DNA of 64,000 nt from Chloroflexota bacterium. Lineage in GTDB: Bacteria; Chloroflexota; Anaerolineae; Promineifilales; Promineifilaceae. The position numbers and the translations under genes are program-made. The notes beneath the pieces are model-generated. The model worked only from the letters and a program-made list of their open reading frames with translations. It was not told where the DNA came from and ran no database searches. This document shows positions 31,123-55,850 of this stretch, in pieces (within the stretch, counting starts at the first letter, position 1; each line of letters begins with the position of its first letter). The stretch lies in the NCBI GenBank assembly GCA_022616275.1, contig JAKEFB010000033.1:1-64000 (forward strand), read 5' to 3'.

Positions 31123-31737
31123 ATGGAGACAGATATCAAGGATTTGGAACAACCTCAGCCACGACCGGCGCCTGACTGGAGCGAGACTGAGCTTGTGCCC
31201 GAACAGCGGCAACCGGCCGAACTCTTCGCCCGCGAAATCATCGAGACGCTGCTGTTAACGTTATTCATCTTTTGGATTGTCAACTCAGCTACCGGCCGCT
31301 TCCGCATCGAAGGCCAGAGTATGCTGCCGACGCTTGAAGAGGGGGAGTATATTATCATTAACAAGCTTAGTTACGCCTTTGACGAGCCGCAGCGCGGCGA
31401 TATTATTGTTCTTCGCTTTCCCAACGACCGCAGCCGTGACTTTATCAAGCGCGTCATTGGCCTGCCCGGCGACGTGATCGAAGTCAGCGACAAAGAGGTC
31501 AGGGTCAATGGCGTTGTGCTGAACGAACCGTACATTCGAGCAGCGCCCACTTACGACGGCCGTTGGACTGTGCCAGAGGGACATTATTTTGTCATGGGTG
31601 ACAACCGCAATAATTCCAGTGATTCGCATAATTGGTCTTTCCTGCCGCGTGACGACATTGTAGGCAAAGCCTGGATCATTTACTGGAGCCCCGAACACTG
31701 GGGCCTGGTGCCGCACCACCAACACAACCTGGGCTGA
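31123..31737 (+). CDS. lepB: Signal peptidase I
   Basis: Membrane serine protease that removes signal peptides from secreted proteins. A single transmembrane helix (about 40-55) precedes the catalytic Ser66 (GQSMLPTL), the general-base Lys109 (IKRVIGLPGD), and the conserved GDNRNNSSDS box. At 204 residues it is the short Gram-positive type. It lies directly in front of the BMC operon on the same strand, a link that may be transcriptional only, since BMC proteins are cytosolic. Confidence 0.95.
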   Translation: METDIKDLEQPQPRPAPDWSETELVPEQRQPAELFAREIIETLLLTLFIFWIVNSATGRFRIEGQSMLPTLEEGEYIIINKLSYAFDEPQRGDIIVLRFPNDRSRDFIKRVIGLPGDVIEVSDKEVRVNGVVLNEPYIRAAPTYDGRWTVPEGHYFVMGDNRNNSSDSHNWSFLPRDDIVGKAWIIYWSPEHWGLVPHHQHNLG

Positions 31738-31755: not shown

Positions 31756-32502
31756 ATGAGCTATCAACAGGATGAGATTGCTGCGCTGGTGCGCCGGGTG
31801 GTGACCCGCACGTTGGGCCAGGCAGCCGCCCGGTCCGTGCTGGATGAAGAAGCCGTGCGCCAGATACCGGTTGGCTCGGTGCAGCCGGTCTCGCCCGGAA
31901 CCATCATCACACCCCTGGCCCGGCAGGTTGCCCTGGAACGGCGCGTGAAGCTGGTCGAAGACGACCCCTCCCAGGCAGGGCCGGCCGCCGGCCCTGCCCC
32001 AGGCGAGACAGCCGCCGGCCAGCGCCTGGTCGCCCTGGGCGCCGATCATGGCGGCTACCAGTTAAAAGAGCAATTAAAAGCGGCCGTCGCCGAAGCCGGT
32101 TATGGCGTCGTTGACTGCGGCACACACAGCGCCGAGGCGGTGGACTACCCCGATTTTGCCTACGCCGTGGCCCGCCTGGTGGCCGATGGCCGCGCCTGGC
32201 GGGGCATTATCGTAGACGGAGCCGGCATCGGCAGTTGTATGGCCGCCAACAAAGTCCCAGGCGTGCGAGCGGCCATGTGTTACGACCAGGCCACGGCCGT
32301 GAACAGCCGTGAACACAACAATGCCAACGTCCTGACGCTGGGCGCGGGCCTCATTGGCCCCCACCTGGCCCGGCAAATTGTCCAGACCTGGCTGGCCACC
32401 GAATTTGGCGGCGGCCGGCATGCCCGTCGCGTCGCCAAAATTGACGCGATTGGCGAGCGATTTATGAGACGAGATGGCCAGATACGACCAGGCAACGATT
32501 GA
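31756..32502 (+). CDS. BMC-associated RpiB/LacAB-family sugar-phosphate isomerase
   Basis: The C-terminal 160 residues are an RpiB fold ([33 protein letters not shown]). The first 22 residues form an amphipathic helix ([16 protein letters not shown]) of the BMC encapsulation-peptide kind, followed by a small module with [17 protein letters not shown] (about 51-67) and a Pro/Ala linker. At the place of the E. coli RpiB catalytic Cys (GILIC-G) this protein has Asp154, and a Cys appears seven residues on (Cys161), at or beside the spot used by Glu in the mycobacterial enzyme. Its reaction is therefore uncertain: ribose-5-phosphate/ribulose-5-phosphate or a related sugar phosphate. It overlaps deoC by 29 bp. 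Confidence 0.9.
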
Positions 32503-33340
32503 GCGCATTATCGAGGAAGTGACCCGCGAGGTCCTGCTGCGCCTGAACCGGCCGGAACCGACCCCGGCCGGCTGCAATTGCACGGACGGCTCCTGCGCCC
32601 AACACTGCGCCGACAAGGTCGAAAAAGTCGTCCAGGCCGGCGCAGCCCGCCTCTCGGCCACCCTGGGGACCCGGCCGCATAATGACAGCGTGGCCCGCCT
32701 GATAGACCACACCTTGCTCAAGCCGGACGCCAGCCAGGACCAGATTGCCCAACTGTGCTATGAAGCCCGTACTCACCACTTTGCCTCGGTCTGCGTCAAC
32801 CCGGCCCACGTCAAGCTGTGCGCCCAGTTGCTCAAAGGCTCTGACGTGGCCGTTTGCACCGTCGTCGGCTTTCCCCTGGGGGCAACCCCGGCCACCGTCA
32901 AAGCCTACGAAACGCAGCAGGCCATTCGCGACGGGGCCAGCGAAATTGACATGGTCATCAACATTGGCGCTCTCAAGTCCAAGGAGTATAAAACCGTTTA
33001 CGAGGATATTGCCGCCGTCGTCCGGGCAGCGGATGCCGGCAACGCCCTGGTCAAGGTCATCATCGAGGCGGCGCTGCTGAACGACGAGGAAAAAGTCATT
33101 GCCTGCCAACTGGCCAAGGCGGCTGGGGCGGAATTTGTTAAGACTTCTACCGGCTTCGGGCCGGGCGGGGCGACTGCGGCCGACGTGGCTCTGATGCGCC
33201 GGGTGGTTGGCCCGGCGATGGGCGTCAAGGCCGCCGGTGGCGTCCGCAACTACGCAGACGCCCAGGCCCTGATCGCCGCCGGGGCAACCCGCCTTGGCGC
33301 CAGCGCCGGCGTCCGCATCGTCAAAGAGGCCAATCAATGA
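32474..33340 (+). CDS. deoC: Deoxyribose-phosphate aldolase with BMC targeting extension
   Basis: Class I aldolase that cleaves 2-deoxyribose-5-phosphate to glyceraldehyde-3-phosphate and acetaldehyde. The core (about 70-288) carries the Schiff-base Lys223 (FVKTSTGF), Lys252 (VKAAGG) and Asp159 (EIDMVINIG). Residues 5-24 are an amphipathic helix ([17 protein letters not shown]), a probable encapsulation peptide. The linker has four cysteines in twelve residues (Cys34, 36, 41, 45), an unexplained possible metal site. It starts inside the preceding gene. As the signature enzyme of the compartment it produces the volatile, toxic acetaldehyde. Confidence 0.95.
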
Positions 33341-33362
33341 AGTACCAAAGGAGCAATTAATT

Positions 33363-34004
33363 GTGACCGTAGAGCTTCGCAGTTACGTCTTTCTGGACAG
33401 TTTGCAACCGCAGCACGCCGCCTTCCTGGGCACAGTGGCCCGGGGCTTCCTGCCTCTGCCGGGCGACGCCTCGCTCTGGATTGAGATTTCGCCCGGTATT
33501 GAAATCAACCGGATTACCGATATTGCCCTCAAGGCCACGGCCGTCCGGCCGGGCATGCAGATTGTGGAGCGGCTCTACGGCCTGTTGGAGGTCCACTCCG
33601 AGAGCCAGGCTGAGGTCCGGGCGGCCGGGGCGGCCATCTTGCGCGCCCTGGAAGTCCAGGAAGAAGACCGGCTCAAGCCGCGCGTCGTCTCCAGCCAGAT
33701 CATTCGCAACATTGATGCTCACCAGGTCCAATTGATAAACCGGATGCGCCACGGCCATATGATCCTGGCCGGCCAGACGATGTACGTTATGGAAGTCCAG
33801 CCGGCCGCCTACGCTGCCCTGGCCGCCAACGAAGCCGAAAAGGCCGCCGACCTGAATATCCTGGAAGTCATTGCCTTCGGCAGCTTCGGCCGTGTCTACC
33901 TGGGCGGCGAAGAACGGGACATCATGGCCGGCTACCAGGCCGCGGTAGACGCCGTCGAAAGCGTCGCCGGCCGCGAAGTGGGAGGACCAAAGAGTAACGA
34001 GTAA
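33363..34004 (+). CDS. BMC-T shell protein, CsoS1D-like tandem-domain trimer
   Basis: Two fused BMC folds in about 213 residues form a trimeric pseudohexameric shell tile. The sequence pattern ([20 protein letters not shown] and [17 protein letters not shown]) resembles the circularly permuted CsoS1D/BMC-T-double family, whose trimers stack face to face and have a gated central pore. The gating residues cannot be assigned safely. Start chosen as GTG at 33363, nine nt after AGGAG. A longer frame from 33294 overlaps deoC and has no ribosome site. It would pass larger metabolites such as sugar phosphates or CoA. Confidence 0.9.
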
Positions 34005-34068
34005 TGAGGACTGAGGACTGAGGACTGAGTGAAGAATCTACTACACTCAGCCCTCAGTCCTCATCACT
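34003..34068. repeat. GGACTGA heptamer hairpin inside the BMC operon
   Basis: Left arm of four GGACTGA-type units (34003-34031), right arm CTCAGCCCTCAGTCCTCATCAC (inverse, 34047-34068) around a central palindromic part. It separates BMC-T from BMC-H and abuts the strong BMC-H ribosome site. Confidence 0.85.
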
Positions 34069-34083
34069 ATTAAGGAGGAATTT

Positions 34084-34371
34084 ATGACGGAAGCATTGGG
34101 AATGATTGAGTGCCGCAGTTTTGCGGCGATGGTCGAGGCCTCGGATGCGATGGTCAAGGCCGCCCGCGTTGAGCTGGTAGGCTACGAAAAGACCGGCGGC
34201 GGTTTCGTCACGGCCATTGTCCGGGGGGACGTGGCCGCCGTCAAGGCCGCCGTCGAAGCCGGCATGCGCGGCGCCGAAAAGGTGGGCGAAGTGGTTTCTG
34301 TCCATGTCATCCCGCGCCCGCACGCCAACGTAGACCAGGCCCTGCCTCTCGGCCGGCAAAGCAGCGAATAA
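34084..34371 (+). CDS. BMC-H hexameric shell protein
   Basis: A single 95-residue BMC domain (PF00936), the building block of the shell facets: [27 protein letters not shown] opening, pore-loop KTGGGF and the [15 protein letters not shown] helix. The pore residues Gly-Gly-Gly-Phe suggest a small neutral channel. It is the only BMC-H gene in the locus and has the best ribosome site of the operon (AAGGAGG, 6 nt before ATG), fitting its role as the most abundant shell part. Repeat hairpins bracket it on both sides. Confidence 0.97.
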
Positions 34372-34372
34372 A

Positions 34373-34447
34373 TTTGGATTTTAGATTGCCGGTTTTGGAT
34401 TTGCGTTCAATCCAAAATCTAAAATCTAAAATCTAAAATCCGAAATC
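34373..34447. repeat. GATTTTA heptamer hairpin inside the BMC operon
   Basis: Left arm TTGGATTTTAGATT with spacer and TTTTGGATTTG (34373-34402), right arm of ATCTAAA/ATCCAAA units (34410-34447). It ends 3 nt before the BMC-P start, so the ribosome site of that gene is replaced by repeat sequence. Confidence 0.85.
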
Positions 34448-34450
34448 GCC

Positions 34451-34774
34451 ATGTTTTTGGGTAAAGTTGTTGGCACGCTGGTTGCTTCCCGCAAAGAAGC
34501 CTCACTGGAAGGGCTGAAGTTCCTCGTCGTCCGCCGCCTGACCATTGACAACGAAGAGACCCCCGGCTACGTGGTCGCGGCCGACGCCGTTGGCGCAGGT
34601 TTGGGTGAGGTCGTTATGGTGGCCACCGGCAGCTCGGCCCGCCAGACCCGGCTCACCGACAAGCGCCCCGCCGACGCCGTGATTATGGCTATCGTGGACA
34701 CGTGGGAAGTCAACGGCGAGGAGAAATACCGGAAGGAATCCCTGCCCGAAGAGTCCTTCCCTGACGAGAGATGA
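34451..34774 (+). CDS. BMC-P pentameric vertex protein (EutN/CcmL), copy 1
   Basis: EutN/CcmL-family protein that caps the shell vertices as a pentamer. The opening [30 protein letters not shown] and the closing [13 protein letters not shown] are family hallmarks. At 107 residues it is longer than the other two copies because of a charged C-terminal tail ([17 protein letters not shown]). No Shine-Dalgarno is visible as the repeat lies immediately upstream. It overlaps the nucleotidyltransferase gene by 4 bp (ATGA), implying coupled translation. Confidence 0.95.
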
Positions 34775-35667
34775 CACCGGCTACCAAACTGAAGCGAAAA
34801 GAGTTAGAACTCTTTGTCGAACGGGTCCTGTCCCACGAGTCAACAGTCGAGGGCGTGGTCGGTATTGGCAGTATAGCTACCGGCCGGATGCGCCCCGATT
34901 CGGACATAGACGCCGTCGTCTTCCTGGACCCGTTGGACTGGTACGTTGTCCCGGCCGAATTTATCTGGCGGCCGTCGGACAGCACTTTTCACAGCATTTT
35001 TACCGGCGACCCCGAGGTGCGAAGTGAAGGCATCCAGCTCAACTGTATTCGCCTGGGGCTGCGGCAATGGGCCAACCGTCTCTTTGATTGGCCGGAGCCA
35101 CGCCGGGCCGAGTTGAGCGCCGGCTGGATCGTATTCGACCGTAAAGGCGTGATTGCCCCCATGATCGCCGAGCGGACGGCCTACTCGGAAATACTGCGCC
35201 AGGAGCGGCTGGACGAGGCCATTACCTGGCTGGACCAACACCTGGGTGGCGACAGGCCGGCCGTGCGCTGGGATACGTTGGGGCCGGCCGTGGCTCATGA
35301 TCGGTTGGAGGCGGCCTACCATTACCTGGTCCAGGCCCTCTTTGCCTATAACCGCCACTGGCTGCCCTGGCGCAACCGGCAAATGGACAGCCTGCTGCAA
35401 CTGCCCTGGCTGCCGGAAAACTTTGCCGCGCGCATGCTGCTGGCCGCTAATGCGCCCTCGGTGGATCAGAAAGGCTACCTGGCCCGCGCCGAAGAGCTGC
35501 GCAGCCTTTTTAACGACTTGCTGGAACGGTTAACCGCCGGCGGCGACTATTCGGCCGCCCCTATTGACCAGGCCTTCATCCGCGGCCACAGCGAACCGGG
35601 CTACGCCTGGAATATGGACGACTGGAACACCGAAAAGCTGCGCCGCTTCCTGGAGGATCATCTTTAA
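34771..35667 (+). CDS. Nucleotidyltransferase-fold protein in the BMC operon
   Basis: DNA-polymerase-beta superfamily nucleotidyltransferase. The N-terminal domain shows the GS-x10-SDID catalytic pattern ([19 protein letters not shown], Asp49/Asp51 approximately), which binds two metals for NMP transfer. A helical C-terminal domain (about 150-298) with an [17 protein letters not shown] stretch may bind the acceptor. No antibiotic-resistance or CCA-adding signature stands out. It is unusual in a BMC operon yet tightly coupled to a vertex protein gene (4-bp overlap). It lacks an encapsulation-type N-terminus, so it probably acts outside the shell. Confidence 0.82.
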
Positions 35668-35668
35668 G

Positions 35669-35691
35669 AGGTAATTGGGTAATTGGGTAAC
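35669..35691 (+). repeat. TAATTGGG octamer pair before the aldehyde dehydrogenase gene
   Basis: Two GTAATTGG repeats lie between an AAGAGG ribosome site and the ATG at 35693, placing the site about 22 nt from the ATG. An in-frame TTG at 35675 would have normal spacing. Confidence 0.6.
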
Positions 35692-35692
35692 T

Positions 35693-37162
35693 ATGTTAGA
35701 CGACACCCAAATACAAGCCATCATTGACCGGGTGATGCGGGAAGTGGGCCAGAATGCCCCACCCCCACCGCCCCCCGAGCCGGCGCGGCGTAAAAGCAAC
35801 CCAGGTTACGGCGCGCCGGAGCCGGAAACGCCTGGCCAGCACGGCGTCTTTGCCACCCTGGACGAAGCCGTGGCCGCGGCCGAGGCTGCCTTCCGCCGTC
35901 TGGATGCCCTGCCTCTGACCATTCGCAAAGACATGGTCGCCCACATGCGCCAGGCTGCCCGGGAATACGCTACCGTTCTGGCCGAAATGGCCCACAGCGA
36001 AACGGGCATGGGCCGGGTAGAGGACAAGACCTTAAAAAATATCCTCAACGCCGATAAGACCCAGGGACCGGAGGCGCTAGAAACGGAAGCCTGGAGCGGC
36101 GACCACGGCCTGACCATCACCGAGTACGCTCCCTACGGCGTTATTGGCGCGTTGACGCCCAGTACCAACCCCACCAGCACTGTCATTTGCAATGCCATTG
36201 CCATGGTCTCGGCCGGGAACGCCGTCGTTTTTAACGCCCACCCCAGCGCCAAGGGTTGCGCCAACACTGTTGTCCAGATTTTAAATCAGGCTATTCAGAA
36301 GGCGGGCGGCCCACCCAATCTGCTCGCCTGTGTCGCTGACCCGACCCTGGAATCGGCTACCGCTCTGATGCATCACGCCGGCATTCGCCTGCTGGTCGTC
36401 ACTGGCGGCATTGGCGTCGTCCGGGCGGCCATGCAGAGCGGCAAGCGCGCCGTTTGCGCCGGGCCGGGCAACCCGCCGGTGGTGGTGGACGAAACGGCCG
36501 ACGTTGAGCAAGCCGGCCGGGACGTCGTCGTCGGCGGCTCTTTTGACAACAACATCGTCTGCACCACCGAAAAAGAGACTTTTGCCGTAGACGCCATCTG
36601 CGACCAGCTCATCGAAGTCATGACCCGCCACGGAGCGGTGAAAATCAACAGTTGGCAGTTTGAGCGGCTGTGGAAGATCGTGACCGTCAAGAGCCGGGGG
36701 CCGGGTAAGCCGGCCGACATGAACAAAGAGTTTATCGGCAAAAATGCCGGCGTCTTGCTCCGCGAGATTGGCATTTCGGCCGGGCCGGAAGCGCGCCAGA
36801 TTGTTGTCGAGGTAGACCGCGACCACCCGGTGGTCTGGTCCGAGCAGATGATGCCTATTATGCCTGTGGTCCGGGTCCGCAGCGCCGACGAGGGCATTGA
36901 CCTGGCTGTGGCCGCCGAGCATGGCTTTCGCCACACGGCGGTTATGCACTCCAAAAATCTGGACAATCTTAGCCGGATGGCCCGGGTCATAAATTGCAGT
37001 ATCTTTGTCAAGAACGGTCCCAACCTGGCCGGTTTAGGGTATGGCGGTGAAGGCTACTGTTCTTTCACCATTGCCAGCCCGACCGGCGAGGGGCTGACCG
37101 GGCCGCGCAGCTTCAGCCGGTTGCGGCGCTGCGCCCTGATTGACGCTTTCCGCATTGTTTAA
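35693..37162 (+). CDS. CoA-acylating aldehyde dehydrogenase (PduP/EutE-like)
   Basis: Oxidises acetaldehyde with NAD and CoA to acetyl-CoA. The 489-residue protein opens with an amphipathic helix (DDTQIQAIIDRVMREVG), the BMC encapsulation peptide, then a poly-proline linker and the ALDH fold. The catalytic Cys290 lies in NNIVCTTEKE, as in PduP/EutE, and SYGV-type cofactor loop motifs (YAPYGVIGALTPSTNP) match acylating enzymes. Start is ATG at 35693; a TTG at 35675 is the alternative. It is the second core enzyme of the compartment, consuming the aldolase product. Confidence 0.95.
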   Translation: MLDDTQIQAIIDRVMREVGQNAPPPPPPEPARRKSNPGYGAPEPETPGQHGVFATLDEAVAAAEAAFRRLDALPLTIRKDMVAHMRQAAREYATVLAEMAHSETGMGRVEDKTLKNILNADKTQGPEALETEAWSGDHGLTITEYAPYGVIGALTPSTNPTSTVICNAIAMVSAGNAVVFNAHPSAKGCANTVVQILNQAIQKAGGPPNLLACVADPTLESATALMHHAGIRLLVVTGGIGVVRAAMQSGKRAVCAGPGNPPVVVDETADVEQAGRDVVVGGSFDNNIVCTTEKETFAVDAICDQLIEVMTRHGAVKINSWQFERLWKIVTVKSRGPGKPADMNKEFIGKNAGVLLREIGISAGPEARQIVVEVDRDHPVVWSEQMMPIMPVVRVRSADEGIDLAVAAEHGFRHTAVMHSKNLDNLSRMARVINCSIFVKNGPNLAGLGYGGEGYCSFTIASPTGEGLTGPRSFSRLRRCALIDAFRIV

Positions 37163-37224
37163 GGGGTTGTCAGGCGCAGGACGCGCAAGATGGAACGCGG
37201 CGTCCTATTTCTTGAGGAGACAGG

Positions 37225-37752
37225 ATGGCTTATAGTCGCTTGATAAATATGGATATTTTTACCGACGCCTACCGGGTCACCGGCCGGGCCGAGGTGGGGG
37301 CTGGTGGCATTCATGCCGAGCTGGGCAATCCCAACACCGATTTCCTTGAGTTGCACGAAGCCTATATCTCCCGTATCCACCAGCCAGGCGAAATTATTTC
37401 CAGTTATAAGCAAGGTTCTTTCCGCAAGGAAAACATTAACTTTATCGTTTTACAGGACAGGCGCGATGGCATTCCCGTGGGCAGCAGCCACGGCCGTTCC
37501 GTTTTCACCCGGGGGCGCTCGGCCGGCATCTTTCTGACCGTGCCCTCGTTTGAGATCCACGGTGAGGTCATGCACGAAGGCAAGATGACCCCTGGCGCTA
37601 TCCTGGTCCAGTCTATTGGCCGGTTCCAGCCCATTTTTGCGGCCAAGGCCCTGGCTTCGCTGTATCCTGACATTTCTTATAGCGGTGATTTGATCCTGGT
37701 CCACAAAGACCGGATCGGTATTTTCTGTCTCAGCAGCGGCGGAGAATTGTAA
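37225..37752 (+). CDS. Unknown BMC-operon protein, two-lobed, 175 aa
   Basis: I do not recognise a family. By eye it has two similar beta-rich lobes: FTDAYRVTGRAEVG...FLELHEAYISRI in the first half and VPSFEIHGEVMHEG...FQPIFAAKALAS in the second, each a strand pair followed by an F-L/I-x-L/A-helix-like segment. No signal peptide, membrane segment or catalytic motif is visible. A GAGGAG ribosome site precedes the ATG. It lies between the aldehyde dehydrogenase and the receiver-ATPase (18 bp gap), so it may be the adaptor or partner of that ATPase. A remote DUF6812-like fold is a guess. Confidence 0.78.
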   Translation: MAYSRLINMDIFTDAYRVTGRAEVGAGGIHAELGNPNTDFLELHEAYISRIHQPGEIISSYKQGSFRKENINFIVLQDRRDGIPVGSSHGRSVFTRGRSAGIFLTVPSFEIHGEVMHEGKMTPGAILVQSIGRFQPIFAAKALASLYPDISYSGDLILVHKDRIGIFCLSSGGEL

Positions 37753-37770
37753 CAAAGGGAGAGTACGCGA

Positions 37771-38898
37771 GTGGCCAATATTTTCGTGATTGACGACGAC
37801 GATCAGCTTCTGCGCATGGTCGGCCTTATGCTGGAACGAGGCGGCCATACGCCAACGTTGATCAGTAATCCCGCCAAAGGGATGGAGCGAATCAAAGAAG
37901 AAAAGCCGGATTTGCTGGTCCTGGACGTGATGATGCCCGGGATGAGTGGGCACGACGTCTGCCGACAAATCCGGGCCGACAAAGAGCTAGGCAACCTACC
38001 CATTCTGATCCTGACGGCCCGCTCTCAGGAAGTAGACCGGGTGGCTGCCCTCAAGAGCGGGGCCAATGATTACCTGAGCAAGCCGGTCACCTCCCAGGAA
38101 TTAATCGAGCGGGTGGACGACCTTCTGGCGCACGGCAAATCCGGCAAGGGCGCGCCGCAAGAGGGCACTATCGTCTGCCTGATGAGCATGCGCGGCGGCG
38201 TCGGCCGGACAACGCTGGCCGTTAACCTGGCCGCCGCCCTGCGCCGCATCAGCCAGGCCGAGGTCTGCCTGGTGGACTTATCCCCTTCGGGCGGCCAGGC
38301 GGTCATGCACCTCCGGCTGCAGGCCAGGAACAACTGGGCCAACCTGCTGTCGCCTGACGGCCTGGACTGGGAAGAGCTGAAGAAAAATCTCACCATTCAC
38401 CAGTCCGGGTTGCGGCTGCTGGCAGCACCCAACCTGCCCCAATCTTCTCTGACGCCCCCGGCCGACGTGACCACCGAGTTCCTGAAGCTGCTGCGGGAGA
38501 ACATGGCTGCGGTGGTCATTGATTTACCGCCGATGTTGAGCCCGGCAGTGCGCGCCGCCCTGGCCGCCTCGGACATGGTCCTGCACGTGGTCACGCCGGA
38601 GGTTATTTCGGTCCAAATGGCCGTCCAGGCCAACCGGGCCTTGACGACGACCGGTATCAACTTGAAGCAGCGCTCCCACATTCTGAACCAGGTCTGGGCT
38701 GAAGCCCAATTGCCCCAGGCGGCCGTCGAGCGCGGCCTGGGCGCGCGTCTGGCTTTCCAGATTAGTTACGACGCCAACCAGCCCCGCGCTCTGGCCCAGG
38801 GTGTGCCCCTTACCTTGACCTCGGCCCAGTCGCCGCTGCCGGTCGTCATGCGGCGCATGGCCGAGGCCATCTGGCAGCGTGTTGCCCAGAGCACCTGA
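37771..38898 (+). CDS. Receiver domain fused to CpaE/TadZ/ParA-like ATPase in the BMC operon
   Basis: Residues 1-120 are a response-regulator receiver (acidic DDD 8-10, phospho-acceptor Asp52 in LDVMMPGMSG, Lys104). After a short linker a MinD/ParA-fold ATPase follows (about 133-370), with the P-loop SMRGGVGRTT (139-148), in which both signature lysines are arginine, then LVDLSPSGG (switch-like) and VVIDLPPML. It begins with GTG after AAAGGGAG. CpaE/TadZ relatives position polar organelles; McdA, a ParA relative, positions carboxysomes. A role in placing or partitioning these BMCs under phospho-control is the leading inference. Transcription control is less likely because no DNA-binding domain is seen. 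Confidence 0.88.
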   Translation: MANIFVIDDDDQLLRMVGLMLERGGHTPTLISNPAKGMERIKEEKPDLLVLDVMMPGMSGHDVCRQIRADKELGNLPILILTARSQEVDRVAALKSGANDYLSKPVTSQELIERVDDLLAHGKSGKGAPQEGTIVCLMSMRGGVGRTTLAVNLAAALRRISQAEVCLVDLSPSGGQAVMHLRLQARNNWANLLSPDGLDWEELKKNLTIHQSGLRLLAAPNLPQSSLTPPADVTTEFLKLLRENMAAVVIDLPPMLSPAVRAALAASDMVLHVVTPEVISVQMAVQANRALTTTGINLKQRSHILNQVWAEAQLPQAAVERGLGARLAFQISYDANQPRALAQGVPLTLTSAQSPLPVVMRRMAEAIWQRVAQST

Positions 38899-38915
38899 AC
38901 GATCACCCTGCCCAT

Positions 38916-39503
38916 ATGGCCTATCCTGCGCTTGCCCTGCTCGAATTTAACAGCATCGCCGCCGGCATTCAGGCTGGCGACGCCATGGTCAAGCGCGCCC
39001 CGATTGAGCAAATTCAGGCCGGAACCGTCCAGCCAGGCCATTACCTGGTCCTGGTCACCGGGGACGTGGCCTCGGTCGAGGAGGCGGTCGCCATTGGCCG
39101 GGAAGTGGGCCAGGCGACGTTACTGGACGTGGTCTTCCTGCCGGACGTCCATCCTGGGGTAGTTTCCGGCCTGGCTGGCGGCCGCGAACCGGCCGAAGCG
39201 GACGCCCTGGGTGTGGTCGAAACGCAGAGCGTGGCCGCCGCCATCCGGGCCGCCGACGCCGGCCTGAAAGGGGCTGAAGTCACCCTATGGCAGTTGCGTC
39301 TGGCCGACGGGCTGGGCGGCAAGGGGCTGGCTCTCTTTGCCGGCCTGGTAGCCAACGTCGAGGCGGCCGTGGAAATTGGCGTCGGCCGGGTCGGCGAGCA
39401 ACTGGTGCGGCAGGTAATCATTCCCCAGTTGCACGCCGAGATGCGCCAGAACGTCGCCCACAGCACCCGCTTCGGCGACCATTTTGACTGGCGCCCGGCA
39501 TAA
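38916..39503 (+). CDS. BMC-T shell protein, single-ring type
   Basis: Two non-permuted BMC domains in tandem (about 1-88 and 95-185), each with the ALLEFNSIAAGIQAGDAMVKRAPI and LGVVETQSVAAAIRAADAGLKGAEV opening. It should form a trimeric pseudohexamer, like the BMC-T1 of Haliangium. Central-pore residues cannot be set with confidence. Seventeen bp after the receiver-ATPase gene and without a clear ribosome site, so coupled translation is likely. Confidence 0.92.
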   Translation: MAYPALALLEFNSIAAGIQAGDAMVKRAPIEQIQAGTVQPGHYLVLVTGDVASVEEAVAIGREVGQATLLDVVFLPDVHPGVVSGLAGGREPAEADALGVVETQSVAAAIRAADAGLKGAEVTLWQLRLADGLGGKGLALFAGLVANVEAAVEIGVGRVGEQLVRQVIIPQLHAEMRQNVAHSTRFGDHFDWRPA

Positions 39504-39504
39504 G

Positions 39505-39586
39505 GTCAGAGATTAGAGATTGGAGATTGGAGATTAGAGTTAGAGTGGTCAAGCGACTCGCAAACTTGCAAACTCGCAGACTCGCC
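39505..39586. repeat. Two adjacent tandem-repeat runs inside the BMC operon
   Basis: GAGATTR units (39508-39546) are followed by an unrelated ACTCGCAA octamer run (39555-39586). Neither has a perfect inverted arm here. They fill the gap between BMC-T and the second BMC-P. Confidence 0.75.
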
Positions 39587-39607
39587 ACTCAGTCCTCAGC
39601 ACTTCTT

Positions 39608-39883
39608 ATGCAACTCGCACGCGTCATTGGTACGGTCGTCGCCACCCAAAAATACGAGGGCCTGGAAGGAATCAAATTCCTCGTCGTCCAGCCCTTAACC
39701 CGGCAGCAGCAGCCGCTGGGCGAGCCGGTGATAGCGGCCGACGGCACGGCCCAGGCCGGGCCGGGCGAGCTGGTCTTCATCGTCGGCAGCCGCGAGGCGG
39801 CCCAGGCCATGCCCATCAAATTTGTCCCGGTGGACCACGCCATCGTCGGCATTGTGGACGACGTCCACCAGGTGGAGGAATAA
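39608..39883 (+). CDS. BMC-P vertex protein (EutN/CcmL), copy 2
   Basis: A 91-residue EutN/CcmL protein (MQLARVIGTVVATQKYEGLEGIKFLVV opening, HAIVGIVDDVHQV closing). Start is the ATG at 39608; a longer frame upstream runs through the repeats. No strong Shine-Dalgarno is seen. The stop codon overlaps the start of copy 3 by one base. Confidence 0.94.
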   Translation: MQLARVIGTVVATQKYEGLEGIKFLVVQPLTRQQQPLGEPVIAADGTAQAGPGELVFIVGSREAAQAMPIKFVPVDHAIVGIVDDVHQVEE

Positions 39884-40152
39884 TGTACATCGGCCGGGTC
39901 GTCGGCACGGTCGTGGCCACGATCAAAGACGAAGCCTTTCGCGGCCACAAGCTGCTTCTGGTAGACCGGCTGAGGCTGGACGGCACGGCCAGCGAGGAGT
40001 ACGACATTGCTATAGACGTAGTCCAGGCCGGCGTCGGCGACCGGGTGCTGGTCATTGACGAGGGCAACGGGGCCCGGCAAATCCTCAAGCGCGACCCGGC
40101 CCCGGTCCGGGCCGTCATCGTCGGCATTGTGGACGACGTGGAAATTGCTTGA
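39883..40152 (+). CDS. BMC-P vertex protein (EutN/CcmL), copy 3
   Basis: An 89-residue EutN/CcmL protein (MYIGRVVGTVVATIKDEAF, RAVIVGIVDDVEIA). Translationally coupled to copy 2 (TAATG). Three different vertex proteins in one locus is more than the single pentamer of simple BMCs, and may give different vertices or hetero-pentamers. The tRNA-Glu promoter overlaps its last codons. Confidence 0.95.
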   Translation: MYIGRVVGTVVATIKDEAFRGHKLLLVDRLRLDGTASEEYDIAIDVVQAGVGDRVLVIDEGNGARQILKRDPAPVRAVIVGIVDDVEIA

Positions 40153-40283: not shown

Positions 40284-40287
40284 CAGG

Positions 40288-40315
40288 GCCACACCGCTGG
40301 CTGGTGTGGCTTTTT
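40288..40315 (+). terminator. Terminator after tRNA-Glu
   Basis: GCCACACC (40288-40295) / GGTGTGGC (40303-40310) followed by five T. It also closes any read-through from the BMC operon. Confidence 0.88.
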
Positions 40316-54545: not shown

Positions 54546-55850
54546 ATGGCTATCATCAACCTGATTGAGCAAAAGCGGGATGGCGGCGAGCTGACTACGG
54601 AGCAAATCGAGTGGTTTGTCCGCGCCTACACGGCCGGCGACGTGCCCGACTACCAGGCCGCGGCCCTGATGATGGCCATTTACCTGCGCGGCATGAACCG
54701 GCGAGAAATCGTGGACCTGACGCTGGCCATGGCCCGCTCCGGCGAGCAGCTTGACCTGCACGAAGTCGCCCCCTTCATCGTAGACAAACATTCTTCCGGC
54801 GGCGTGGGCGACAAGACCACCCTGGTCGTCCAGCCCATGGTCGCCGCCTGTGGGGTGCCCGTCGGCAAGATGAGCGGCCGCGGCCTCGGCTCCAGCGGCG
54901 GCACGCTGGATAAGATGGAATCCTTCCCGGGCTGGTCGCCCGACCTGACGCTGGAGCAATTTAAGCGCCAACTGGCTGACATTGGCCTGGTGCTGGCCGG
55001 CCAGACGGGCGACCTGGCCCCGGCCGACGGCAAACTCTACGCCTTGCGCGACGTGACCGGCACGGTGGCCAGCACACCGCTCATTGCCGCCTCGATCATG
55101 TCCAAAAAGCTGGCCAGTGGGGCCGACGCCATTGTTCTGGACGTCAAGATGGGGCAGGGGGCGTTTATGCCCACCGTCGAGATGGCTCGCGAGCTGGCCC
55201 GGATTATGGTGGACATCGGCCAGGACGCCGGCCGCCAGACAGTGGCCCTCATCACCGACATGAACCAGCCCCTCGGCCACGCCGTCGGCAACGCCCTGGA
55301 GGTGAAAGAGGCCCTGGACACGTTGACCGGTGGCGGCCCGGCCGATTTCTGGGGCCACTGCCTGGACGTGGCCGGCTATATGCTCCTGCTGGCCGGTAAG
55401 GCCGGAACGGTGGAGGAAGCCAAGGCCCTGGCCACGGCCGCACGGGACGACGGCCGGGCGCTGGACAAATTCCGCGCCCTGGTCCACGCCCAGGGCGGCG
55501 ACCCCTCCACCGTGGACCACCCAGAGCGGCTGCCCCAGGCCCGGCTGGTGGAGCCCGTCCACGCCGGGCGAGACGGCTTCCTGGCCGGCATTAATGCCCG
55601 GGCCATCGGCTGGAGCTGTGTCCGCCTGGGGGCCGGCCGGCAAGTGAAGGAAGATACCATTGACTACGGCGTCGGCATGATCATCCCGGTCAAGGTGGGC
55701 GATCACCTGGCGGCCGGCGACTTGTTGGGGACGATTCACGCCAACGACCCGGCCAGGCTGGCCCAGGCTCGCCGGGAATTTCTCGAGGCCCTCACCTGGT
55801 CGGACGAGCCGGTCGCGCCCTTGCCCCACCTGTATGAGATTGTAGAATAA
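54546..55850 (+). CDS. deoA: Pyrimidine-nucleoside (thymidine) phosphorylase
   Basis: Phosphorolyses (deoxy)thymidine and uridine to free base and (deoxy)ribose-1-phosphate. The signatures are VDKHSSGGVGDKTTLV, the anion/base site with KMSGRGLGSSGGTLDKMESFPG, and the C-terminal IDYGVGMIIPVKVG. Length (434) and motif order match the pyrimidine-nucleoside phosphorylase family. Its product feeds deoxyribose-5-phosphate through a phosphopentomutase (not in the window) to the deoC of the BMC operon 14 kb away. AAGAGG precedes the ATG. Confidence 0.95.
   Translation: MAIINLIEQKRDGGELTTEQIEWFVRAYTAGDVPDYQAAALMMAIYLRGMNRREIVDLTLAMARSGEQLDLHEVAPFIVDKHSSGGVGDKTTLVVQPMVAACGVPVGKMSGRGLGSSGGTLDKMESFPGWSPDLTLEQFKRQLADIGLVLAGQTGDLAPADGKLYALRDVTGTVASTPLIAASIMSKKLASGADAIVLDVKMGQGAFMPTVEMARELARIMVDIGQDAGRQTVALITDMNQPLGHAVGNALEVKEALDTLTGGGPADFWGHCLDVAGYMLLLAGKAGTVEEAKALATAARDDGRALDKFRALVHAQGGDPSTVDHPERLPQARLVEPVHAGRDGFLAGINARAIGWSCVRLGAGRQVKEDTIDYGVGMIIPVKVGDHLAAGDLLGTIHANDPARLAQARREFLEALTWSDEPVAPLPHLYEIVE

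Follow-up and report, generated by a model that had tools for sequence, protein, structure and literature searches.

The window considered here, the whole stretch of 64,000 nucleotides analysed from a Chloroflexota bacterium of the class Anaerolineae (contig JAKEFB010000033.1, assembly GCA_022616275.1), carries on its plus strand, from position 31,756 to 40,152, genes for a BMC-H protein, two BMC-T proteins of different build, three BMC-P proteins, a deoxyribose-phosphate aldolase (DeoC), a CoA-acylating aldehyde dehydrogenase and an RpiB-like protein (Table 1). The genes named for this run in the initial annotation were all recovered, with family E-values so low that chance matches are excluded. 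Profile and PDB matches show that each of the three shell protein types is encoded at the locus. A terminator-like hairpin follows the last gene; the region holds seven such sites against a mean of 10.5 in shuffled sequences, that is, no excess.

Table 1. Features of the locus and its surroundings, with the matches on which each was named.
Feature	Position	Strand	Evidence
Signal peptidase I (neighbour)	31123-31737	+	PF10502 2.2e-50
RpiB-like protein (RpiB/LacAB)	31756-32502	+	PF02502 6.1e-54
Deoxyribose-phosphate aldolase DeoC	32474-33340	+	TIGR00126 equivalog, 279 bits vs cut-off 117
BMC-T, double-ring (CcmP-like)	33363-34004	+	phmmer to CcmP 3e-96; NF053796
BMC-H	34084-34371	+	PF00936 1.4e-30
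BMC-P vertex protein 1	34451-34774	+	PF03319 3.3e-28
Nucleotidyltransferase-domain protein	34771-35667	+	PF01909 1.2e-5
CoA-acylating aldehyde dehydrogenase	35675-37162	+	PF00171; NF011927 640 vs 403 bits
175-aa protein	37225-37752	+	no family match
Receiver domain fused to MinD/ParA-like ATPase	37771-38898	+	PF00072, PF13614
BMC-T, single-layer, tandem BMC domains	38916-39503	+	PF00936 in two stretches, 6.2e-36
BMC-P vertex protein 2	39608-39883	+	PF03319 5.1e-27, from residue 28 of ORF opening at 39527
BMC-P vertex protein 3	39883-40152	+	PF03319 4.4e-26
Terminator-like hairpin, 12 pairs	40285-40313	+	3' of last gene; consensus match only
Pyrimidine nucleoside phosphorylase	54546-55850	+	PF07831 1.0e-18

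The two BMC-T genes encode distinct shell components. The double-ring protein, whose GTG start is preceded by a ribosome-binding-like AAAGGAG, had no match in Pfam; it scored 382 bits with the NCBIfam CcmP equivalog, above the cut-off of 340, and was identical to the CcmP of PDB 5lsr at 152 of 211 residues (72%). Its gene neighbours, unlike those of the beta-carboxysome CcmP, are the enzymes described below and include no carboxysome enzyme. The nearest solved folds of the single-layer protein are PduT-like (3nwg, 2.1e-34); a role as electron conduit was rejected because the protein contains no cysteine.

Protein organelles of the sugar-phosphate-utilisation (SPU) class are recognised in bacteria but, to our knowledge, unstudied. 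By its sequence the locus falls within the published definition of SPU loci (Axen 2014; Sutter 2021), a pfam01791 aldolase and a pfam02502 isomerase within a BMC locus (PMC8217296): both were found (PF01791 at 1.5e-15), together with an acylating, BMC-type aldehyde dehydrogenase and a BMC-H/BMC-T/BMC-P shell, so that the class assigned earlier is supported. The locus shares with SPU loci the DeoC-type aldolase, the RpiB-type protein, the aldehyde dehydrogenase, BMC-H, the BMC-T double ring and BMC-P, and the survey names Chloroflexi among the hosts (PMC8217296). It differs in that no PduL was found and no PduS lies in the locus, and in the receiver/ParA and nucleotidyltransferase genes that intervene; in the account of Axen 2014, PduL occurred in all the first SPU loci except those of Marinimicrobia. 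The survey names subtype SPU6 for Anaerolineae, whereas it reports CcmP-like BMC-T rings for SPU2 and SPU3 (PMC8217296); the ring found here may thus hint at SPU2/SPU3 (or HO, MIC3) and not at SPU6. In the comparison of gene order with related loci that had been proposed, DeoC, the double-ring BMC-T, BMC-H, BMC-P and the dehydrogenase follow one another as in the window in 25 of 60 loci of the class, and all nine genes do so in 12, the 60 including some loci broken by contig ends or belonging to other BMC types.

DeoC is a strong equivalog of DERA and was the only match of its kind found in the genome. In alignment to 6d33 it keeps FVKTSTGF, which includes the context of the DERA Schiff-base lysine, FVKTSTG. 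The dehydrogenase, whose likely start is ATG 35693, has 5jfl as its nearest solved structure. Both enzymes and the RpiB-like protein begin with a targeting-type helix (in DeoC at about 32504-32551), and the N-terminal parts of DeoC and RpiB fall outside the region matching solved free relatives, the best solved DERA matches beginning at DeoC residue 68-74. The helical moment was reached by 0.15% of shuffled sequences for the dehydrogenase, 9% for DeoC and 26% for RpiB; as proof of a targeting peptide it is good for the first and weak for the other two, so that for these the case rests on the helix reappearing in related proteins of both families. Through such helices the shell would enclose all three enzymes.

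The initial annotation had called the operon complete, which is true of the shell and not of the enzyme core. Searches of the genome (98.25% complete, 5.5% contaminated) gave no phosphotransacylase, either as PF06130 (PduL) or as PF01515 (Pta/Ptb), families detected in 2 and 10, respectively, of 14 control genomes. No alcohol dehydrogenase is encoded among the genes of the 31-41 kb region; four Fe-ADH matches lie elsewhere in the genome, and the two readable near their start revealed no targeting helix on visual inspection. As the phosphotransacylase searches came out negative, it is proposed that CoA would probably be recovered by another route, or that acetyl-CoA would leave the shell. On the supply side, the pyrimidine nucleoside phosphorylase gene, which accounts for the genome's single PYNP_C match, is located in the same window 14 kb downstream of the locus, and its product is a possible supplier of deoxyribose-1-phosphate. 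DNA-sugar catabolism has been proposed for the SPU class (PMC8217296; PMC4207490). The earlier proposal that the compartment encloses acetaldehyde made from deoxyribose-5-phosphate is supported by the strong DERA equivalog, by its being the sole DeoC match and by this sole PYNP_C match.

The label of RpiB-like isomerase requires a caveat. The protein consists of its N-terminal helix, a second conserved segment of about 45 residues and the RpiB domain. In alignment to 3he8, Asp154 (bases 32215-32217) replaces the catalytic cysteine (Cys66 in E. coli), and Ala156, two residues further on, replaces the relay threonine; the roles of these residues are known from studies of the family (PMC4783025; PMC3755991; PMC3212906). 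Aspartate occupied the catalytic site in all 35 RpiB proteins read from SPU loci of the class (34/34 aligned, with ORFs below 60% of the query length left out and loci without an RpiB ORF adding nothing, plus L158/L240). Among 48 distinct RpiB proteins of the class from other places, 47 had cysteine, one glycine and none aspartate; 38 of these had been fetched as the domain alone and 37 came from genomes without a BMC-P match. The contrast is drawn from these class-wide sets only, since a further RpiB scan, of which the best 80 of 587 were retained, favours Asp-type sequences by construction. Rows L128, L140, L147, L148, L157, L255 and L259, to which the residue pattern gave no reading, were read as cysteine by alignment or by eye. 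Counts of distinct genes exclude L126, L127 and L128, which repeat the window, L139 and L140; the proteins of L160, L162, L163 and L170 are those of L041, L080, L043 and L084.

Among 72 Asp-type cases examined across phyla, 70 had shell genes in the locus or a BMC-P gene in the genome. Shell genes were present in the fetched DNA of 51 of 78 Asp-type loci and absent from that of 27. Where no shell gene was near, BMC-P was encoded elsewhere in 19 of 21 genomes with an Asp-type protein (a count that leaves out L165, L166, L189, L193, L201 and L208) and in neither of two genomes with a Cys-type protein; the two Asp-type genomes with no BMC-P at all were L188 and L223. Since some enzymes of the shell-less loci L167, L199 and L204 also keep targeting-type helices by eye, an isomerase-aldolase pair working without a compartment, an idea raised by the 27 loci, was mostly dropped on these counts. 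A quick tree gathered the Asp-type sequences into a single group (SH-aLRT 87; one change). The residues equivalent to Asp8, His9, Tyr, His99, Asn100, Arg133 and Arg137 are kept in the window and in 114 of 114 Asp-type rows, a few of which duplicate one another; the window protein thus has the ring-opening His and Asn, the Asp-His pair and the Arg pair. The relay threonine is alanine in 110 of the 114 rows, and Ser160 and Asn183 are particular to the group. Column 198, which we read as Arg113 of trypanosomatid RpiB, a third phosphate ligand, is Gly in 75 and Arg in 17 of 113 Asp-type sequences; phosphate binding would therefore not be fully kept.

These observations suggest, with a probability of roughly 70%, that the locus encodes an SPU-class metabolosome for 2-deoxyribose 5-phosphate whose RpiB-like partner is no standard ribose-5-phosphate isomerase. 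The latter is inferred because both residues of the C1/C2 proton shuttle are lost while most residues for sugar-phosphate binding and ring opening are kept. Deoxyribose 5-phosphate has no O2 atom, and our favoured guess, itself rather unlikely, is that the RpiB-like protein opens the ring of this sugar and so feeds DeoC. The need for such a helper is weakened by the fact that the free sugar opens unaided to some degree. In nine of 80 loci, and in several phyla, RpiB and DeoC are fused in one frame; elsewhere, as in the window, the genes are adjacent, a feature that, with the helix and the two replacements, sets these proteins apart from other RpiB/LacAB isomerases. The fusion was rejected as a novelty, as Axen 2014 (PMC4207490) had already reported it for Marinimicrobia.

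The most serious alternative, less probable yet far from negligible, is that the RpiB-like protein is a working isomerase of ribose 5-phosphate or another aldose phosphate with aspartate as its base, and that phosphates of ribose and of deoxyribose both enter the compartment. An aspartate base is conceivable because the RpiB of M. tuberculosis isomerises with Glu75 (PMC4783025); the window protein exceeds the cut-off of TIGR01120, ribose 5-phosphate isomerase B (152.5 against 138.65 bits), and Axen 2014 took the SPU protein as an isomerase, noting the broad specificity of RpiB proteins (PMC4207490). However, base and relay threonine have changed together; in LacB, activity falls about 20-fold with T67A and is abolished by C65A (PMC3755991), as it is by C69S in the RpiB of L. 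donovani. The replacement, moreover, tracks the BMC genes, and the two other PF02502 genes of the genome both keep cysteine at the catalytic position.

It is improbable that the locus is an HO-type (Haliangium) or other metabolosome that acquired SPU-like enzymes by convergence. The BMC of Haliangium ochraceum shares the BMC-P triplet and a related double-ring BMC-T (5v74, phmmer 2e-75), nucleic acid sugar catabolism has been proposed for it, and the survey, which records CcmP-like rings for HO, ties the dehydrogenases of that type to SPU5/SPU7 (PMC8217296). In the window, by contrast, DeoC and RpiB with targeting-type helices lie inside the main locus, as in the SPU definition, and the double-ring protein is nearer to CcmP than to HO proteins.

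Slightly less probable still is a compartment-positioning system, like McdA/McdB of carboxysomes, made of the receiver/ParA fusion and the 175-aa protein. These two genes and that of the nucleotidyltransferase, on which the initial annotation was silent, interrupt the run. ParA-type ATPases do position carboxysomes, and the window, like the related BMC loci L038-L041, L044, L060, L080, L092 and L093, has the pair within the gene run. The 175-aa protein, which had no match in Pfam, NCBIfam or PDB, was nevertheless not commoner in BMC genomes (24 of 109, against 57 of 189 others; Fisher p 0.14), and the fusion has the P-loop RGGVGRTT, in which the usual lysines are missing. Signal peptidase I, found 5' of the SPU genes in many loci, keeps its place in BMC-less relatives, where it occurs with the nucleotidyltransferase, the 175-aa protein and the fusion in L106 and L107; the nucleotidyltransferase neighbourhood without BMC genes also occurs in L105. 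The positioning reading was therefore dropped, and the three genes, being present in relatives without BMC, are probably neighbours and not BMC parts. Least probable of all is a reversed aldolase that joins acetaldehyde from elsewhere to glyceraldehyde 3-phosphate, for acetaldehyde disposal or deoxyribose phosphate synthesis: the DERA reaction is reversible and no further source of aldehyde was recognised among the enzymes of the locus, but the acetaldehyde would also be claimed by the acylating dehydrogenase that shares the shell, and a nucleoside phosphorylase lies nearby.

Assignment of an isomerase to SPU organelles rests on family membership, and in view of the aspartate signature this role is not to be taken for granted. 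The accepted picture of the organelle needs a bench test. The signature may double as a marker for SPU-type loci, and annotation as ribose-5-phosphate isomerase, or of the shell gene as beta-carboxysome CcmP, may mislead. In the literature searched, no mention was found of the Asp-for-Cys replacement in SPU RpiB or of a four-cysteine motif in SPU DeoC.

This motif lies in the window at 32573-32608, between the targeting helix and the catalytic core of DeoC. An iron-sulfur motif there is a lead only; the N-terminal piece of the window DeoC gave no Fer4 match, and a composite scheme, in which a repurposed, non-isomerising RpiB opens the deoxyribose 5-phosphate ring for a sometimes fused DeoC while a metal or redox centre in the DeoC linker ties activity or loading to redox state, appears quite doubtful. 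Fer4 matches occurred in five of six related DeoC proteins scanned, all below cut-off. The Cys-pattern counts cover 41 DeoC (which can include the BMC-less L105), 31 RpiB and 14 aldehyde dehydrogenase extensions of at least 40 residues, and from the DeoC set 12 of 112 rows (window included) were dropped where the core motif was not found. Some four-cysteine pattern was present in 51 of 94 distinct DeoC proteins, and the exact [4Fe-4S] ferredoxin-type CxxCxxCxxxCP in three.

The locus is a real sugar-phosphate-utilisation (SPU) locus that encodes each of the three types of bacterial microcompartment (BMC) shell protein, and an ordinary member of its class; its value lies in what comparison reveals about the SPU class, and the naming of the isomerase is directly testable. 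The class was named for loci with deoxyribose-phosphate aldolase (DeoC), an RpiB-like protein and an aldehyde dehydrogenase (Axen 2014, PMC4207490). The later survey describes seven subtypes and more than 280 loci across 26 phyla; pfam01791 and pfam02502 are common to all of them, and catabolism of DNA degradation products is the proposed role (Sutter 2021, PMC8217296). The assignment of the initial annotation to this class agrees with the definition as worded in these two surveys, and all the genes that it named were identified by Pfam, NCBIfam and PDB sequence searches. The run comprises an RpiB/LacAB protein, DeoC, a double-ring BMC-T, BMC-H, BMC-P, an acylating aldehyde dehydrogenase, a tandem BMC-T and two more BMC-P. 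Three other genes lie within it, encoding a nucleotidyltransferase, a 175-aa protein that matches no known family and a fusion of a receiver domain with a ParA-like ATPase. The first BMC-T is without a Pfam match, yet it is identical to carboxysomal CcmP at 152 of 211 positions; the name CcmP would mislead here, because the adjoining genes are SPU genes. Elsewhere in the genome there are no matches to PF00936 beyond the BMC-H and tandem BMC-T of this locus, or to PF03319 beyond its three BMC-P, models that would miss any additional CcmP-like ring.

Features of the SPU locus, its surroundings and one related locus
Feature	Positions	Strand	Remark
SPU gene run	31756-40152	plus	
RpiB N-terminus with ~45-aa segment	31756-32022	plus	conserved, TPLAR..A..R.I.L, between targeting helix and RpiB domain
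Four-Cys motif in DeoC linker	32573-32608	plus	between targeting helix and catalytic core
First (double-ring) BMC-T	33363-34004	plus	NCBIfam label beta-carboxysome CcmP (382 against a cut-off of 340 bits)
175-aa protein and receiver/ParA protein	37225-38898		
PYNP_C (pyrimidine nucleoside phosphorylase domain) gene	54546-55850		only PYNP_C match in the genome
DeoC of related locus L105	10059-10823 (in L105)		between signal peptidase and nucleotidyltransferase

A BMC-P gene is present in 109 of 298 sampled genomes of the class Anaerolineae. Among 60 loci fetched around such genes, DeoC, double-ring BMC-T, BMC-H, BMC-P and dehydrogenase follow the order of the window in 25, RpiB adjoins DeoC in 32, and all nine genes keep the order in 12. 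The locus therefore belongs to a known and common class, and its closest named relatives are Chloroflexota, including an Ardenticatenaceae isolate. Levilinea saccharolytica KIBI-1 (L176) is a strain that carries a locus of this kind. As to subtype, it looks like SPU2 or SPU3, since CcmP-like double rings are assigned to HO (the Haliangium type), MIC3, SPU2 and SPU3 in the survey, in contrast to SPU6, the subtype named there for Anaerolineae (Sutter 2021, PMC8217296).

In the RpiB-like protein, alignment with Clostridium thermocellum RpiB (3he8) places Asp154 at the catalytic Cys and Ala156 at the Thr two residues on. Asp occupies this position in 34 of 34 aligned RpiB from SPU loci (the window and 33 class ORFs) and in one further class RpiB whose SPU context was recognised later (loci L158 and L240). 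The 48 distinct class RpiB from other places have Cys in 47 cases, Gly in one and Asp in none; they combine two sets (29 and 19), 38 having been fetched as the domain alone. The genomes of 37 gave no BMC-P match; the other 11 belong to BMC genomes, on different contigs from the observed BMC-P matches, and include the two paralogues of the window's genome. The second of these PF02502 paralogues (L140, contig C91) is divergent, with the active site CWTGTG and a very long tree branch. A class RpiB with Gly at the catalytic position (L256, IGGTGIGMS) is from a genome without BMC-P.

A scan of the genome collection started from the SPU alignment, with patterns that favour Asp-type sequences, gave 78 Asp and 2 Cys among the best 80 of 587 loci. 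Within these best 80, shell genes occur in the fetched DNA of 51 of the 78 Asp-type loci and DeoC in 66, and RpiB and DeoC share one reading frame in 9 of the 80. Such a fusion had earlier been noted in Marinimicrobia (Axen 2014, PMC4207490). For Asp-type genomes without a nearby shell gene, BMC-P was found elsewhere in 19 of 21 tested (of 27); for the corresponding Cys-type genomes the count was 0 of 2. A quick tree built from 146 rows places the Asp rows together, set off by a single branch (SH-aLRT 87). Deeper Asp-type RpiB from Bacteroidota, Ignavibacteriota and another bacterium (L187, L224 and L237; motifs VDGTGVASC, IDAVGVASA and VDTTGIASA) are possible intermediates. A search of the open-licence literature found no report of the Asp replacement in SPU RpiB.

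In the RpiB family the Cys is the base taking the C2 proton and the Thr a relay between O2 and O1; mutation of the Cys abolishes activity, and T67A in LacB lowers it about 20-fold (PMC4783025, PMC3755991). All 114 Asp rows keep the ring-opening His, the adjacent Asn, the Asp-His pair, the Tyr and two phosphate Arg, and in 110 of them the relay Thr is Ala. Seven alignment columns, including 154, 156, 160 and 183, divide the groups sharply, and the third phosphate ligand (the Arg113 equivalent by our alignment) is mostly missing from the Asp group. 2-Deoxyribose 5-phosphate, the substrate of DeoC, has no O2 and cannot be isomerised by the C1/C2 route. The residue pattern fits a protein that still takes and opens a furanose phosphate without C1/C2 chemistry, and the RpiB-like protein may thus be a helper in ring opening or binding. 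It is at least as likely that the protein isomerises some sugar phosphate with Asp as its base. Judged from the alignments, the signature isomerase of the SPU class is probably misnamed.

Some RpiB carry the targeting helix alone and others only the ~45-aa segment, for which a Pfam search gave no match and which may resemble the EutT N-terminus.

The DeoC extensions have a feature of their own: at least four Cys lie between helix and core in 32 of 41 from the class, and at least two in 0 of 31 RpiB and 0 of 14 dehydrogenase extensions. The DeoC linker is ferredoxin-like in some lineages; in others it contains two Cys or lacks them. The exact CxxCxxCxxxCP, the pattern of 4Fe-4S ferredoxins, occurs in only 3 of 94 distinct DeoC, and Pfam Fer4 matches to the related DeoC scanned all fall below the cut-off. 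A metal or disulfide site can be guessed at from these cysteines, and the open-licence literature yielded no report of a Cys motif in SPU DeoC.

Neither PduL nor Pta/Ptb phosphotransacylases were found in the genome (98.25% complete, 5.5% contaminated); of 14 control genomes, 2 gave matches to the first family and 10 to the second. There is no alcohol dehydrogenase within the locus, and a search for the iron type gave four matches elsewhere in the genome. The window DeoC is the sole match to its own sequence in the genome. Together with the PYNP_C gene, this agrees with pyrimidine deoxynucleosides as the source of the deoxyribose, though the 14 kb between that gene and the locus is not operon linkage.

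The 175-aa and receiver/ParA proteins occur as a pair, side by side in 15 of 20 examined neighbourhood loci with or without BMC; the P-loop of the window fusion, RGGVGRTT, is without the usual lysines. The pair resembles a positioning module for the compartment, but it does not pass a test for association with BMC: 81 of 298 class genomes have the 175-aa protein, namely 24 of the 109 BMC genomes and 57 of the other 189 (Fisher p 0.14). Two relatives from the window's family that gave no BMC-P match (L106 and L107) have signal peptidase, nucleotidyltransferase, 175-aa protein and receiver/ParA in that order. The neighbour genes stand together without BMC in relatives, and thus the BMC genes are interleaved among them in the window. 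In L105, also of this family and without a BMC-P match, a DeoC that lacks the targeting helix by eye stands at the corresponding place between signal peptidase and nucleotidyltransferase, as would be expected before gain of the compartment or after its loss.
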